This document shows, one piece after another, positions 23,989-33,044 of a stretch of 64,000 nt of DNA; positions within the stretch are counted from its first letter, which is position 1, and every line of letters begins with the position of its first letter. The notes beneath the pieces were generated by a model, which saw nothing but the letters and a program-made list of their open reading frames with translations, had not been told where the DNA came from and made no database searches. The position numbers and the translations under genes were made by a program. The stretch is from Halorussus limi (lineage in GTDB: Archaea; Halobacteriota; Halobacteria; Halobacteriales; Haladaptataceae): NCBI RefSeq assembly GCF_023238205.1, contig NZ_CP096659.1:2063626-2127625 (forward strand), written 5' to 3'.

Positions 23989-24852
23989 TTACAGCAGACC
24001 CGTCTTCTGGAGCTTCATGAGGTCCTCGGTGTCGAGGGTCTCGCCTTCCTTGAACTGCTGGTAGATCTCCTCGGCCTCCTCCTTGGCCTCTTCGCGCTCC
24101 TTCTCCTTCTCGGACTTGCGCTCTTCCTCTTCCTGCTTGTCGAGTTCGCGCAGGCGCTTCTGGACGCGGACGAAGTCCTCGTGGTGCTGGTCGGCGGCCT
24201 CCTGGGCCTCCACGAAGCTCTCGTGCATCTCGTCGGCCTCGTCGCGGATTTCGTCGGCTTCGCGGTAGGCCTCGATCATCTGGTTGTGATGCTCTTGGGC
24301 CTTGTCGGCGAGTTCCGTGACCTTCTCGTGGTGACGGCTCGCTTCGGCGCGGACCTCCTCGGCTTCCTCGACGAGTTCGTCGAGGTTCTCGCTGTCGTCG
24401 AGCTTCTCCTTTCGCTCTTGAAGCTTCTCGCGCTTCTCCTCGATCTTCTCGATGAGTTCGCGCTCGTCCTCGGTCGAGAGAACCTCGGTCTGCTGCTTGA
24501 ACTCGAGGTCTTCGATTTCGGATTCGAGTTCCTCGATGTCCTTGCCCTCGTCGAGTTCGAGGTCGGACTTCTTCTGCTCGACTTCGTCGAACAGCTCGTT
24601 GGCCTTGGCGTTGAGCTCGTTGCGCTGTTCCTTGTGTTCCTGAACCTGCTCGTTGAGCTCGTCGCGCTTCTCGCGGTGTTCCTGAGCCTCGTCGACCTTC
24701 TCGCGCGTCTCGGCGTTGAGGTCGTCGCGCTTGGACGCTCGCTTGCTAGCCTTCTGGTTCAGCTCGTTTCGTCGGTCTCGGAGCTGTCCTGCGAGTTTGA
24801 TTAGTTCGCCTTTCGACTTGTTCTGAAGTTCCTCTTCTGTTACACTTACCAT
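23989..24852 (-). CDS. Archaeal coiled-coil protein (COG1340-like)
   Basis: A 287-residue, almost entirely charged protein (Glu, Lys, Arg, Gln) with continuous heptad patterning from about residue 5 to 265. Examples are LIKLAGQLRDRRNELNQKA, DELNEQVQEHKEQRNELNAK and ELIEKIEEKREKLQERKEKL. There is no signal, membrane helix or globular domain. This fits the uncharacterised archaeal coiled-coil family COG1340, which recalls SMC/Rad50-type arms without ATPase heads. It has its own transcription unit. TTTAATTAA directly before the ATG is too close to be its TATA box, so the real promoter may be further upstream. Role unknown; a scaffold or ribosome/chromosome-associated rod is possible. Confidence 0.85.
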   Translation of the reverse strand: MVSVTEEELQNKSKGELIKLAGQLRDRRNELNQKASKRASKRDDLNAETREKVDEAQEHREKRDELNEQVQEHKEQRNELNAKANELFDEVEQKKSDLELDEGKDIEELESEIEDLEFKQQTEVLSTEDERELIEKIEEKREKLQERKEKLDDSENLDELVEEAEEVRAEASRHHEKVTELADKAQEHHNQMIEAYREADEIRDEADEMHESFVEAQEAADQHHEDFVRVQKRLRELDKQEEEERKSEKEKEREEAKEEAEEIYQQFKEGETLDTEDLMKLQKTGLL

Positions 24853-25248
24853 GCTTAATTAAACCTCGATTCCATGCCCGCCGTGGCGTTCGGCAGTCCA
24901 GTGAGCGACAGCAACCGCTGTATGCAACTGGCAATCGACCGGTGACAATAGTCCCATGTCATTTGTCGCACGATGCTTGCCGAACGCTCGTGGCGTTCTG
25001 GTATCAACAAATATTCGCTGTGGCTATATAAATGTTCCGTATAGTTGGCTAATGGAAACGGTTCACACGCCCGCTAACGGCCGTGTAAGCCGTTCCCACA
25101 CTGTGCGGGGGGATATAAAGAACTGCCGCGAGGGTCGCGAGTAAATCGCCCGCCGTCACGGTCGCACCGCGACGAGCGAGACCGGTGAATCGAGCGCGAC
25201 CGACGACGTCTCACCGAACCGACCAGCGCCGAGCGGACGACGCCGAAC
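24853..25248. other. AT-richer intergenic region with orphan TATA box and inverted repeat
   Basis: A 396-base region between two leftward genes. Near 25025-25031 there is a strong TATATAA. About 26 bases later an imperfect inverted repeat begins (25057-25069 with 25082-25094, 11 of 13 pairs). GGATATAAAG follows near 25111-25120. No credible protein frame follows either element. This is either the distant promoter of the coiled-coil gene or a small-RNA locus. Confidence 0.4.
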
Positions 25249-27144
25249 TTACAGCGGATACACGTTCTGCACCGCTCCGTCGGCGCGTCCGAACGACAGT
25301 TCGACTGTCTCGGCGTCTGACGGCACGGTCAGCGTGCCCGCCCGCTCGCGGTCGAGTGGACCGACCTCCGCGTCGCTCTCGCCGGTCTGGCCGCCCGCGG
25401 TCCACGAGACGGTGCCCGAGACCGCCTCTGGCGTGTCGTTGACGACCGTGAGCTCTCTGGTCTCTCCGGCCGCGGGGTACTCGTCTAGGACGACCTGCAC
25501 GGGTTCCAGCGAGGCCGCAATCGCCTCGTAGCCCGCCTTCTCGCTCCCGTCGGCCGACAGCACGCCCATGCCCGCGCCTTCGTCGATGTCTCGGAGCGCG
25601 TCGGCCGCGAGCAGGCCGCTTCCCCGCCGCCGGAGCGTCTCGGTCACGTCCTTCAGGACGCGGGCCTGATACGCTTGAGAGGCTTCGACCGCCGACTCGT
25701 CGGACTCGACGCCCGCCTCGACGTACGCGGCGTGGGCGCCGGCGTCGAATCCGGCCGCGTCGTGGCCGTCCTCGCCGACGAGCGACCCCGCACCGAACGC
25801 CCCGACCGCGCCGCCGCAGTCGTACTTGTCCAGCGCCCACTCGGTGTCGGCGGGCGTGCCGAACTCCCAACCGGGATAGAGGTGGGTCGCGTCGGCGCCG
25901 ATGCCCGGCCCGCCCGAGACGGGAAAGACCGGAGCGCCTTCGGGGAGCGCGTCGGCGAGTTCTCGGTCCGCGTCACCGTCGTACCTCGCGCGCCACGCCC
26001 GCCACCGGAACTTGTAGCGCGCGACCCGTGAGGGACCGACGCCCGCGAGGTGGTCGGTCGGGTCGGAGCGGACGCCGAACGCGGCCACGCAGGGGTGGCG
26101 CTCGACCGAGGCGGCGACCGTCTCGGCCAGCGATTTCGCGGCGTCGGGGTCGGCCTCGGCCCGTCCGACCAGCGGGAGGTCCTGCCAGACCAGCAGGCCG
26201 GCGTCGGCCGCGGCCTCGTAGAACTCCATAGGCGGGACGTGACCGTACGCCCGGACGAGGTTCGCGTTGGCGTTCGCGGCCCGTTCCACGTCCCACGTCG
26301 GGTCGCCGGTGGGGAGCAGCGAGAACCCGCGGGCCGGAACTCGCTGGCCGTTGACGACCAGCGCGTCGTCGCCCGCGCCGTCCGTCGCTCCAGCGGTCTC
26401 GACCTCACAGAGACCGGTCTGGACGACGCGCTCCGAATCGCCCAGTTTCGCCCGAACCTCGTACTGGTGCTGGGGACCGAACCCGTTGGGCCACCAGTAG
26501 GCCGGGTCCCGGAGTTCGAGGGTCTTCTCGACCGTCGCGCGCTCTCCGGCGTCGGCCTCGACTCGGGCGCGCTCCATCACGCCGCCGCCTCGGAACCCCT
26601 GCGGGCGAACCGACAGCGAGACGCGGTCGTCCAGCGATTCGCCCGCCTCGACGGCGAGTTCGGCGTCGATGACCGCGCCGTTCTCCGTCCGACGCGGCGT
26701 CAGCGAGAGTCGGTCGACGAACGTCCGGGGGTGCGTTTCGAGGTCCGCGGCCCACCAGATGCCGGGGACCGCGCGCTCGTCGGGGACTCGGTCGGTCGCG
26801 TAGACGCCGCCGAACGCCTCGGGGGCGCGACACTCGACGACTAACTCGTTGTCCGAGTCGAGGTTCAGTTCGTATCTCGCGGGGACGAAGTGGGCATCGT
26901 GTTCGTCCAGCAGGTCACCGTTCAGCCAGATCCGGGCGTGTGCGAACAGGCCGCGGAGTTCGAGAGTCGCGCGCTCGTCGCCGTCGCGGGGGTCGCCGAA
27001 CTCGGTCCGGTAGGCGACGGCGTCGGCGTCCGCGAAGCGCTCGGGGCGGCCGGGCACGTCCACGGGGTGCCACTCGTCGGGGGAGGGCGGCCCGTCACCC
27101 GCGGACGGTTCGACCGCGGCGCCCGTCCAGTCGGTCAGAGACAT
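25249..27144 (-). CDS. Glycoside hydrolase family 2-like protein lacking both catalytic acids
   Basis: A 631-residue protein with the GH2 layout: N-terminal jelly-roll (about residues 15-150), Ig-like sandwich (about 150-250), TIM barrel (about 255-510) and a C-terminal beta domain (about 545-631). NANLVRAYGHVPPMEFYEAAADAGLLVWQDLPL is the recognisable start of the GH2 barrel. The usual acid/base Asn-Glu after HPCV is Ser360-Asp361, and the nucleophile Glu of the SEFGxQS-type motif is Ala449 (GAFGAGSL). It has no Tat or Sec signal. It is probably non-hydrolytic and may bind sugars. The start at 27144 agrees with the domain boundary. Confidence 0.75.
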   Translation of the reverse strand: MSLTDWTGAAVEPSAGDGPPSPDEWHPVDVPGRPERFADADAVAYRTEFGDPRDGDERATLELRGLFAHARIWLNGDLLDEHDAHFVPARYELNLDSDNELVVECRAPEAFGGVYATDRVPDERAVPGIWWAADLETHPRTFVDRLSLTPRRTENGAVIDAELAVEAGESLDDRVSLSVRPQGFRGGGVMERARVEADAGERATVEKTLELRDPAYWWPNGFGPQHQYEVRAKLGDSERVVQTGLCEVETAGATDGAGDDALVVNGQRVPARGFSLLPTGDPTWDVERAANANANLVRAYGHVPPMEFYEAAADAGLLVWQDLPLVGRAEADPDAAKSLAETVAASVERHPCVAAFGVRSDPTDHLAGVGPSRVARYKFRWRAWRARYDGDADRELADALPEGAPVFPVSGGPGIGADATHLYPGWEFGTPADTEWALDKYDCGGAVGAFGAGSLVGEDGHDAAGFDAGAHAAYVEAGVESDESAVEASQAYQARVLKDVTETLRRRGSGLLAADALRDIDEGAGMGVLSADGSEKAGYEAIAASLEPVQVVLDEYPAAGETRELTVVNDTPEAVSGTVSWTAGGQTGESDAEVGPLDRERAGTLTVPSDAETVELSFGRADGAVQNVYPL

Positions 27145-27256: not shown

Positions 27257-27409
27257 ATGCTCGAAGACCTGCAGTGCGTCTGCGACGGCCGGAACTGCGA
27301 GCGTACCCTCAGCGAGACCGAGTTGATGCTCCGGATGACGACCGACGCAGGCGAGCGCCGCGCCTACGAGTGCGCCTGCGGCGCGGTCACGGTGACGGTG
27401 GTGCGGTAG
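27257..27409 (+). CDS. 50-residue Cys-rich putative zinc-binding protein
   Basis: The ATG at 27257 opens 50 codons to a TAG at 27407. The peptide has five cysteines, Cys7-x-Cys9, Cys14 and Cys39-x-Cys41, with acidic residues between, as in small haloarchaeal zinc-finger proteins. Codon use is strongly G/C at third positions, as in its neighbours, and a TATA-like box lies at the leaderless distance. A ribbon made by Cys7/Cys9 and Cys39/Cys41 is plausible. Partner (DNA, RNA or protein) unknown. Confidence 0.7.
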   Translation: MLEDLQCVCDGRNCERTLSETELMLRMTTDAGERRAYECACGAVTVTVVR

Positions 27410-27594: not shown

Positions 27595-28017
27595 ATGGAA
27601 GAAGTCATCCACGCGCGCGGCCACGAGAACGTCTCGGCCGCCCACGCCAGCACCTTCGAGGTCACGACCGACGACTACCTCACACCTGCGGGCGACTGCA
27701 TCCTCGGGGTCGAGGCCGACCGCGCCCCGGCCGACTTCGACCCCGAGTTCATCGCGGCCTGCCGGCACGCCGACGCCACTATCACCGCGACGTTCGAGAC
27801 CGACGGCCACGCCGAGACCGTGGTCGGGCGCGGCCACCCCGACCTCGCGTTCGAGAACGACCGGAGCGCCGTGGGTCGGACCAGCGACTACGTCGACGAC
27901 CGGACGATTCTCGTCGGGGCCGAGTTCGCGGCCGAGGGATTCGACCGCGAGTTGGTCGATGCGCTGGCGAACGGGGCCGACCTGACCGTGACGTTGACCG
28001 TCGAGCGCGAGGACTGA
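27595..28017 (+). CDS. DUF371 family protein
   Basis: A 140-residue archaeal protein of DUF371. It shows the conserved opening IHARGHENVSAAHASTFEVTTDDYLTPAGDCILGV and the FENDRSAVGRTSDYV segment typical of the family. The fold is probably all-beta with conserved polar residues (GHEN, TDD, GDC) that could form an active or binding site, but no activity is known. It is followed about 110 bases later by the endonuclease III gene, which has its own promoter. Confidence 0.88.
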   Translation: MEEVIHARGHENVSAAHASTFEVTTDDYLTPAGDCILGVEADRAPADFDPEFIAACRHADATITATFETDGHAETVVGRGHPDLAFENDRSAVGRTSDYVDDRTILVGAEFAAEGFDRELVDALANGADLTVTLTVERED

Positions 28018-30164: not shown

Positions 30165-30361
30165 CCCCCGAGAGCGTCGTCGTTGCCATCGTCGGAACGC
30201 ATCGTTCTCGGCGGAACGCGTCGTTACTATCGTCGGGACGCTCGGCGACCGATTTCGACGGGTTGTCGCGGCGTTCTCGCGCGCCGCGTCGCTGCCTCCG
30301 GTCAGATTTCGGTAAGCAGGAGGGTTTTTAACGCGCGACCGTCTGGATTCAGATACGCGAC

Positions 30362-31519
30362 ATGAGTACGCTGGTAGTGTGCGTCGACCGCGACGACGAC
30401 ATCGGGACCAAGACCGGCCTCGACACCCCCGTCTCGGGGTGGGAAGCGGTCCGGTCGCTCGTGACCGAGGTCGGTCTCGCGGACCCCGAAGACGCCAGCG
30501 TCAACTGTCTGCTCGAATCCCTGCGCGTGGCCCGCGACCTGCGGGACGGCGACGAGGAGGTCTCGGTGGCGGTCATCTCGGGCGCGGCCGAGACGATGGT
30601 CGGGCGCGACCGAGCGGTCGCCGAACAGATGGACTCGCTCATCGCCGAGTACGACCCCGACTCGGCGGTGGTCGTCATCGACAGCGCGCAGGACGAGCGA
30701 CTGGTCCCCATCATCGAGAGTCGGGTGCGGGTCGACGCGGTGGACCGCGTGGTCGTCCGGCAGGCCCGCGACATCGAGTCGACCTACTACCTGCTCAAGC
30801 AGTTTCTCGCCGACGAGGAGTTGCGCCAGACCGTCCTCGTCCCGGTCGGGGTCGCCATGCTGGCCTTTCCCATCCTGCTGATGGCGTTCGGTCCCGCGAT
30901 GGCGGTCGCCTCCATCACCGCGGTCATCGGCCTGTTCGTCCTCTACAAGGGACTGGGCGTCGACGACTACGTGGCCGACATGCCCGCCGAGGCCAAGGAC
31001 GCGCTCTACTCCGGGCGCGTCTCCATCGTGACCTACGTCGTCGCGGCGGGTCTCTCGCTCATCGGCGTCTTCGCCGGAGCGCTCCGGGTCTCGGACCCCT
31101 CCGCGCCCACAGAGGGCGTCCTGATGCCCGCGATGGCGTTCGCGTTCGCCAGCGTGCCGTGGTTGGCCGCGGCGGCGCTGGCGGCCTCGACCGGCCGACT
31201 GCTGGACGAGGTCATCCGCAACGACAACCTGCGCAACTCCTATCTCAACCTCCCGTTCGGCGTCCTCGCGGTCGGACTGGTCGTCCGGGGTTTCTCGGCG
31301 TACTTCCTCCAGCGTGAGGCGTACGTCGAACCGCTGGTCGTCCCCGCCATGGAACTGGGGAGTCTCGCGGTCGAGCGCATCGAACTCGACCCCGGGACGC
31401 GGATGGCGCTGTTCGTCGTCGCCGGCATCGTGGTGAGTCTCCTCGGAGTGCGCGTCTCGACGTACGTCACCGGGTCGTCGCTCGGCGAGGAGTTCGAGGA
31501 CGAGGAACTGGTGGACTGA
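30362..31519 (+). CDS. DUF373 family membrane protein
   Basis: A 385-residue archaeal protein. The soluble N-terminal domain (about residues 1-150) opens LVVCVDRDDDIGTKTG, the DUF373 hallmark, and includes VAVISGAAETMVGRDRAVAEQ. Then come about seven membrane segments (about 155-195, 217-240, 250-280, 300-320 and 342-362). The soluble part could bind a nucleotide or metal, but no role is known. A TTTTTAA element about 30 bases before the ATG serves as promoter. A short acidic tail ends the protein. Confidence 0.9.
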   Translation: MSTLVVCVDRDDDIGTKTGLDTPVSGWEAVRSLVTEVGLADPEDASVNCLLESLRVARDLRDGDEEVSVAVISGAAETMVGRDRAVAEQMDSLIAEYDPDSAVVVIDSAQDERLVPIIESRVRVDAVDRVVVRQARDIESTYYLLKQFLADEELRQTVLVPVGVAMLAFPILLMAFGPAMAVASITAVIGLFVLYKGLGVDDYVADMPAEAKDALYSGRVSIVTYVVAAGLSLIGVFAGALRVSDPSAPTEGVLMPAMAFAFASVPWLAAAALAASTGRLLDEVIRNDNLRNSYLNLPFGVLAVGLVVRGFSAYFLQREAYVEPLVVPAMELGSLAVERIELDPGTRMALFVVAGIVVSLLGVRVSTYVTGSSLGEEFEDEELVD

Positions 31520-31654
31520 CGGCGCTCGCCGCGACTCTCCGAACGAGAGTCTTCGAGGATTCTGTTCCTTCGAGGTGGCCTCAGGTGGCGGTTCGCCGTC
31601 ACGCGGACGCGCCGATTCGCCGCACCTAAATCCGCCGCTCTCCGACTCACCGCC

Positions 31655-32413
31655 ATGACCGAATATTCCGCCGCGGCCGACGACGCCGCCGCGAGCGACG
31701 GGTCGTGGGTCAGCCTCTTCTCGGGCGGCAAGGACTCGTCGTGGGCGCTCTACCGCGCGCTGGAGGAGGGACTCGACGTGTCTCGCCTCGTCACCGTTCA
31801 CCCGGAGGGCGACTCCTACATGTACCACGTTCCGGCGACGCGCCTCGCCTCGCTCGCGGCCGAGAGCGTCGGCGTTCCGCTCGTGGAGGTCGAACCCGAC
31901 GACTTCGAGGCCGCCGACGCCGAGGAGTCGGGCGCGCAGGGCGACGCGGAACTCCGACCGCTCGAAGCCGCGCTGGGCGAACTCGACTCGGAACTTCCCG
32001 ACGGCGTCGCGGGCGTCACGGCGGGCGCCGTCGAGAGCGAGTACCAGACCTCCCGCATCGAGGCGATGGCCGACCGACTCGACGCCGAGGTGTTCGCGCC
32101 GCTCTGGCAGGAAGACCCACGCGAACTCGCCGATGCGATGCTCGACGCGGGCTTCGAGATTACCGTCATCCGGGTCGCGGCCTACGGACTCGACGAGTCG
32201 TGGCTCGGGCGGACGCTGGACGGGGAAGCCATCGCCGAGTTGGAGGACCTGAACGAGAGCCACGGCGTCCACATCCTCGGCGAGGGCGGCGAGTTCGAGA
32301 CGCTGGTGACCGACGGCCCGCACATGGAGCGGCCCATCGAACTGGAGTACGAGACCGAGTGGGACGGGACGCGCGGGACCCTGCAGATTACGGACGCGTG
32401 GCTGGGCGAGTAG
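31655..32413 (+). CDS. dph6: Diphthine-ammonia ligase (Dph6-type ATP pyrophosphatase)
   Basis: A 252-residue N-type ATP pyrophosphatase with the PP-loop SGGKDSS at residues 23-29. YMYHVPATR, the GAVESEYQTSRIE segment and LGEGGEFETLVTDGP are conserved in the MJ0570/Dph6 family. The protein catalyses the last step of diphthamide synthesis on elongation factor 2, amidating diphthine. The first 15 residues are a low-complexity Ala/Asp lead-in. It stands upstream of a ParB-like protein gene by about 67 bases; I see no functional link. Confidence 0.92.
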   Translation: MTEYSAAADDAAASDGSWVSLFSGGKDSSWALYRALEEGLDVSRLVTVHPEGDSYMYHVPATRLASLAAESVGVPLVEVEPDDFEAADAEESGAQGDAELRPLEAALGELDSELPDGVAGVTAGAVESEYQTSRIEAMADRLDAEVFAPLWQEDPRELADAMLDAGFEITVIRVAAYGLDESWLGRTLDGEAIAELEDLNESHGVHILGEGGEFETLVTDGPHMERPIELEYETEWDGTRGTLQITDAWLGE

Positions 32414-32480
32414 GTCCGAGGAGCGCGCCGACCGATTGCCGTAACTCTTCTGACCGTGGGCCGCCTTCGAATCGAACCCC

Positions 32481-33044
32481 ATGACCATCGAAGACCGCCT
32501 CCGCGGCGACCCCGAACCGGTCTCGCCGGAGCGGGTGATGCGCTACTGGCTCGGTCAGGAAGTCGAGGACGAGGACGGCGCCCCGAACCCCGACGCCATC
32601 GGCACCGAACCCGCGCTCCGGGAGGAACTGTTCGAGCGCAAGCCCATCGCCGAACACGTGTTCACGCCCGAACCGGCCGACTGGTACCTCGCCGACCTCT
32701 CGGAGGACGCGCTCCGTGACCTCCGGGTCGTCGTCGGCGAACCCGAGCAGGGGTGGCGCGCGCTGACCGACGACGACCGAATCGAGAGCATCGCCGAGCG
32801 CATCCACGAGACCGACGACGTGGACGCGCTGGGGTCCGAGACCGGCAAGGACCTCCGGGAGGTCGTCGAACTCGCCGACGCCATCGACCGGGAGGGACCG
32901 CAGGGCCGCCTCGTCGTGGTCGAGGAGGGCGACGACCCGGCGTACGTCGCCGACGGGAATCACCGCGCGGTGGCCCACGTCCTCCACCTCCTGCGCGGCG
33001 GCGAGTTCGAAGGCCAAGAGGCGTATCTCGGCGTGCGAGAATAG
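32481..33044 (+). CDS. Small ParB/sulfiredoxin-like protein
   Basis: A 187-residue protein. Around residues 150-165, AYVADGNHRAVAHVLHLL matches the D-G-x-H-R pattern of the ParB/Srx nuclease-like fold, with RLVVVEEGDDPAY as the preceding strand. There is no DNA-binding domain after it, unlike true ParB. The N-terminal two thirds (about 1-125) are acidic helices without recognised motifs. It could be a nucleotide-binding or nuclease enzyme acting alone. The assignment is by motif only. Confidence 0.6.
   Translation: MTIEDRLRGDPEPVSPERVMRYWLGQEVEDEDGAPNPDAIGTEPALREELFERKPIAEHVFTPEPADWYLADLSEDALRDLRVVVGEPEQGWRALTDDDRIESIAERIHETDDVDALGSETGKDLREVVELADAIDREGPQGRLVVVEEGDDPAYVADGNHRAVAHVLHLLRGGEFEGQEAYLGVRE

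Follow-up and report, generated by a model that had tools for sequence, protein, structure and literature searches.

A putative pseudoglycosidase family of the Halobacteriales derived from GH2 enzymes

A gene of the haloarchaeon Halorussus limi (assembly GCF_023238205.1, contig NZ_CP096659.1) codes for a protein that resembles GH2 enzymes, and an earlier note made from the sequence alone had claimed that it lacks both catalytic acids and is a conserved binding protein or a repurposed enzyme, not a decayed gene. This raises the question of what such a protein is now: a relic on its way out, an enzyme with altered chemistry, or an enzyme fold that has been put to another use. We use the term window for the whole stretch of DNA that was analysed (64,000 nucleotides), and all coordinates are given in its numbering. 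The features of the gene that are central to the argument are as follows.

25249..27144, minus strand: GH2-derived putative pseudoglycosidase gene, the exact extent of an open frame from ATG to stop with a product of 631 aa; homologues found
26062..26067, minus strand: codons of Ser360-Asp361, at the GH2 acid/base Asn-Glu position; placed by alignments and computed from the start codon
25798..25800, minus strand: codon of Ala449, at the GH2 nucleophile Glu position; placed by alignments and computed from the start codon

Relationship to GH2 enzymes

The window protein is homologous to GH2 enzymes in its sandwich domain: in Pfam it matches PF00703 (GH2 sandwich) with 28.1 bits, above the cut-off of 23, and the same domain is matched by 31 of the 32 family members scanned. 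A match to PF22666 falls below its cut-off. The GH2 TIM-barrel domain, PF02836, has no match in the window protein at E 0.1 and none across its own genome, and is absent among the families listed for the 32 scanned members at E 0.01. The best solved relatives of the window protein are GH2 beta-mannosidases (phmmer; 6byg, E 1.9e-14 over residues 127-328), and the use of a family profile extends the structure match (6byi, E 6.4e-31).

This likeness to the beta-mannosidases (6byc, 6bye, 6byg and 6byi, with controls such as L112 and L113) takes the form of a full-length profile match, and it includes the WWP.G.G.Q motif, an Asn-Gly, Arg298 and a Trp-Gln-Asp motif. The family protein differs from them in lacking the acid/base, the Asn that precedes it, the nucleophile (Ala in the window protein) and a Trp of strand 8, in being shorter than the beta-mannosidase controls by some 180 residues or more, and in an eroded second half of the barrel. 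Another GH2 group, the exo-beta-D-glucosaminidases (2vzs and related entries; enzyme size 1032 aa), is similar over residues 45-320 of the window protein, but this match is weaker and ends ahead of the catalytic stretch. The GH2 subfamilies of PMC12243196, as far as its main text presents them, belong to the same superfamily as the window family; in that main text the terms “inactive” and “halo” are absent and “archaea” appears once. Among the matches listed from titles and abstract starts of the open-licence PMC literature, none concerned the GH2-derived family. A structure prediction from four sequences only, namely, the window protein and L031 to L033 (close relatives that include Halorussus aquaticus, L031, and Halorussus litoreus, L033), yielded an unusably poor model (mean pLDDT 39, pTM 0.30).

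Distribution

Of 293 Halobacteriales genomes searched, 126 contained a match to the window protein at E <= 0.001, and 12 of these matches, with E above 1e-20, were assigned to other GH2 proteins. This leaves the family in 114 of the 293 genomes, with 179 lacking a family match. The alignments below comprise 105 of the 114 members, with G273, G020, G232, G162, G157, G177 and G139 omitted along with the two-frame copies of G118 and G074. In a draw of 294 genomes from the phylum there were 18 matches, 16 of them full length and every one of these from the same order; the remaining two are partial, as expected of GH2 proteins. Hence, within this draw the family appears to be confined to the Halobacteriales. 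Within Halorussus itself, 17 of 18 genomes have a match, which in two cases is spread over two frames; the genome without one is 62% complete. A full-length match is found in none of the 10 genomes from the other two genera of the taxonomic family to which the window belongs. Relatives of the protein are also absent from the seven candidate viral stretches searched.

Catalytic positions across the family

In GH2 enzymes in general, an Asn-Glu pair on strand 4 provides the acid/base and a Glu on strand 7 is the nucleophile. MAFFT alignments of the 105 members with true GH2 proteins place Ser360 of the window protein opposite the Asn and Asp361 opposite the Glu of the acid/base Asn-Glu pair, and Ala449 opposite the nucleophile Glu. 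The same three positions are returned by hhalign on comparing a profile of the 105 members with one of 11 haloarchaeal beta-mannosidase-type proteins (probability 99.93, E 7.9e-36, 591 columns). In a three-row MAFFT alignment Ala449 falls a few residues off the nucleophile Glu; we accept it as the nucleophile position because intermediate motifs, e.g., VSEYGAGAL, occur in members. Of 18 other haloarchaeal GH2 loci serving as controls, one (L124) was dropped, being in the wrong frame; Asn-Glu is present in 17 of the remaining 17 and the nucleophile Glu in 15. There are two exceptions at the nucleophile. L120 has a gap there, whereas L114, which is likewise a haloarchaeal GH2 protein and not a family member, keeps Asn-Glu and has an Asp at the aligned position (VVVSDVGTWAF).

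Across the family, the complete set of Asn-Glu and nucleophile Glu occurs in none of the 105 aligned members. Both acids are lacking in 47, the acid/base Glu is present alone in 19 and the nucleophile Glu alone in 36, and three members have both, each with an Asp preceding the acid/base; Asn-Glu itself survives in two members (L060 and L082), both without the nucleophile Glu. The 39 members with a Glu at the nucleophile position include 34 that carry Asp at 361. In nine related members (L101 to L109) this position is a gap, since the stretch aligned to about 419-465, a part of the barrel, is missing. The earlier claim that both acids are lost from the window protein is thus borne out by MAFFT and hhalign alike, with the small offset noted for Ala449, and the catalytic set proves to be incomplete in every one of the 105 aligned Halobacteriales members.

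The strand-8 Trp (WQLND motif; stretch 508-521) is absent from all 105 members, as against its presence in 11 of 11 beta-mannosidase-type haloarchaeal controls, and the loss at the active site therefore exceeds two residues. Combined with the unmatched PF02836 and the deletion in the nine members, this contradicts the supposition that all other domains are intact. Conservation is also unevenly spread, being higher in the first half: on our own division of the protein into segments, columns in which 95% of the members or more share one residue make up 8-10% of the first three segments and 3% of the last two, and the second half of the barrel is eroded. Thirteen alignment columns are identical across the 105 members; Tyr45, Trp217, Pro219, Asn265, Gly273, Arg298 and Gly316 are among the invariant residues. 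True GH2 enzymes share the majority of these invariant residues, which may be just structural. The positions around both acids are otherwise variable.

Order of the losses

In a FastTree phylogeny of the 105 members and 15 controls (L114, L120 and L124 being omitted from the latter), the family separates from the controls on a long stem; the node that unites it carries a low printed support of 0.28, a value that re-rooting may have moved. Parsimony gives the family ancestor a non-Glu (Asp) acid/base, with the preceding Asn already lost, and a Glu at the nucleophile; the latter position subsequently underwent nine changes or, if the Glu was never regained, at least 11 losses. On this reconstruction we infer that the acid/base was lost on the stem of the family and that the nucleophile was lost later, repeatedly.

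Genomic neighbourhood

Two neighbours recur around the gene.

23989..24852, minus strand: gene for a DUF7121 coiled-coil protein (PF23435), the downstream neighbour on the same strand
27595..28017, plus strand: DUF371 gene (PF04027), the divergent upstream neighbour

We compared 111 loci, which stand for 107 genomes, four being counted twice as judged by identical match figures; a separate all-against-all search of the neighbourhoods covered acidic frames only and left out L001 to L030, so that it can miss neighbours. The DUF7121 gene is the next recognised downstream gene on the same strand in 107 of the 111 loci, at a gap of 215-655 bases (396 in the window). The exceptions are L106, a locus that stops just past the gene, L110, and L078 and L083, which come from two genomes of one genus (G220 and G261) with DUF7121 elsewhere. 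DUF371 lies divergently upstream in 62 of the 111 loci, thirty of which have only about 1.5 kb of flank. DUF7121 itself is matched in 290 of the 293 genomes of the order, and we found no mention of it in the open-licence PMC literature.

Among 20 genomes sampled from the 179 noncarriers, none has a family member within about 5 kb upstream of DUF7121, and eight have DUF371 divergently upstream of it. As the same DUF371/DUF7121 surroundings are seen with and without the gene, it fills one slot that is shared across the order, from which it has probably been lost many times; gain into the same slot may be an alternative to multiple loss. Two other frames of the window were noted. On the plus strand, at 27257-27409, a frame of 50 aa that is divergent from the pseudoglycosidase gene has several cysteines in CxC and CxxxxC arrangements, as read by eye, and may code for a small zinc-finger protein. 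On the minus strand, at 30302-32488, a frame of 728 aa has no Pfam or NCBIfam match at E 0.1, and frames resembling it occur close to family members elsewhere among the loci.

Proposed role and alternatives

With the residues of the double displacement missing, GH2-type hydrolysis is not expected of the protein. Given this incomplete set and a locus common to many haloarchaea, the protein probably now serves a purpose other than the cleavage of sugars. By sequence, it combines homology to an enzyme, loss of catalytic residues and a gene maintained by selection, as is typical of a pseudoenzyme, with the absence of activity itself being predicted. Moreover, a simple hydropathy and motif scan detected no signal or Tat peptide in any of the 105 members (N-termini homology-trimmed and approximate), in agreement with the earlier remark on the window protein. 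Taking these findings together, we propose, as a fairly likely reading, that the protein is a cytoplasmic noncatalytic pseudoenzyme from a beta-mannosidase-like GH2 ancestor that has been retained as a binding or scaffold surface. On this proposal, an ancestral loss of the acid/base would have been followed by several independent losses of the nucleophile, ending in the window protein with Ser-Asp for Asn-Glu, Ala for the nucleophile and no strand-8 Trp; selection would have kept the shell, namely, the jelly roll, the immunoglobulin-like domain and the first half of the barrel, and this shell would act as the noncatalytic surface. With the pocket for the most part unmaintained, we favour a protein partner, or a glycan outside the old catalytic pocket, over a sugar in the former -1 subsite. 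Thus, the notion of a repurposed or binding protein stands insofar as the set is incomplete in 105/105, the gene is not decaying in Halorussus and no secretion signal was detected, and it is weakened for a sugar pocket by the loss of the strand-8 Trp.

One alternative is a lectin-like sensor, in which the old pocket binds a sugar, a nucleotide sugar or a glycoconjugate without cutting it. Glycosidase-derived binding proteins are known elsewhere, and the GH2 ancestry would suit such a role. Further, the pocket is not wholly lost: Arg298 (105/105), Asp322 (101/105) and, on the old pocket side, Trp426 (95/105, with nine of the remainder being gaps) are retained as in beta-mannosidases. However, the strand-8 stretch is without its Trp in every member, which argues against a retained sugar pocket; the nucleophile stretch is missing in nine members, and the positions around the acids vary. 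Hence, we consider this alternative unlikely, albeit the strongest of the rivals.

A poorer case can be made for a slowly decaying relic, in which a one-time enzyme is only weakly selected for and drops out of one lineage after another. It would account for the patchy presence (114/293 genomes), the deletions in nine members and the two copies among the 107 examined genomes in which the gene is split over two frames; these copies, in G118 (L016) and G074 (L025/L111), are both from Halorussus and may be pseudogenes or sequencing errors. The rates of substitution bear on it in both directions. In 105 pairs of 15 Halorussus sequences the dN/dS of the pseudoglycosidase gene (NG86) has a median of 0.265 and a range of 0.187-0.381, and in a second genus the median is 0.229 (10 pairs of five sequences); at the same Halorussus loci DUF7121 has a median of 0.088, about three times lower. 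Purifying selection thus acts on the gene in Halorussus, if more loosely than on DUF7121. The looser constraint, the 179 genomes without a match and the two split copies together imply that the gene is dispensable in many lineages; but every pair falls in the range above, the family matches in the carriers listed are free of internal stops, and 13 columns are identical in 105/105. The claim that the gene is not a decayed one is therefore supported for Halorussus, and we regard the relic as quite improbable.

That the protein has remained an enzyme, in which Asp361 or a different residue does the catalysis at least in the members with a nucleophile Glu, is highly improbable, since the 39 members with Glu449 (34 of them with Asp361) and the three with Glu at both positions have to be set against a window protein with neither Glu, a family in which neither the full Asn-Glu and Glu set nor the strand-8 Trp occurs in any of 105 members, and repeated loss of the nucleophile without loss of the gene.

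If the preferred reading of a noncatalytic surface is correct, the family would offer a clean case of the reuse of an enzyme fold without its chemistry, kept across much of an order, in which the order of events is visible, with the acid/base lost first and the nucleophile afterwards, repeatedly. Labelling such proteins as GH2 on the strength of their sandwich domains alone would be misleading, as it implies an activity that is not expected of them. The haloarchaea include organisms with laboratory genetics.

An RNA element before DUF7121

The gap between the two genes holds a further conserved feature.

24861..25004, minus strand: conserved RNA-like element, some 140 nt long, in the stretch that separates the pseudoglycosidase gene from that of DUF7121; found by alignment, covariation and model search

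It can be aligned in 121 of 127 regions upstream of DUF7121, and as 20 of these are from loci without the pseudoglycosidase, it belongs with DUF7121. Its start motif, present in 117 of the 121 regions, gives 104 distinct sequences. Of these, 84 are no longer than 175 nt; thinning reduced them to 62, and 53 of the latter were aligned. A long-range helix of six pairs, which was written by hand after reading these sequences, then counted on them and is hence fitted to them, has 85.6% of its cells paired in the 53 sequences, versus 75.7% when shuffled and at most 50.2% when slid. All six pairs covary, with changes on both sides, and pair 14-140 also ranked first when column pairs were scanned without guidance; RNAalifold returned no consensus structure and predicted no pairs for the element. 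No Rfam family matches it at E <= 1, and tRNA and Rfam scans of the 64-kb window found nothing. The element may be a candidate regulatory structured leader. For Haloferax volcanii, long leaders are described as infrequent in a part of PMC4983044.

The position beside DUF7121 is a lead to a joint function and not proof of it, because DUF7121 has a promoter-like stretch of its own and is nearly universal regardless of the pseudoglycosidase. Cotranscription of the two genes was not adopted, in view of the gap of 215-655 bases and a TATA-like stretch ahead of the RNA element. A broader scenario, in which a GH2 protein turned once into an order-wide cytoplasmic noncatalytic regulator or scaffold that works with DUF7121, itself preceded by a structured RNA unmatched in Rfam, is a long shot, which we would entertain as speculation.

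A model of the element matched 34 of 40 relatives, always with a single copy, and in all 29 matched relatives in which the position of DUF7121 is known the element ends just before that gene. In the phylum draw, under stricter filters, it was present in 21 of 148 genomes, all from the same order, with a second, weak match in one genome (G049).
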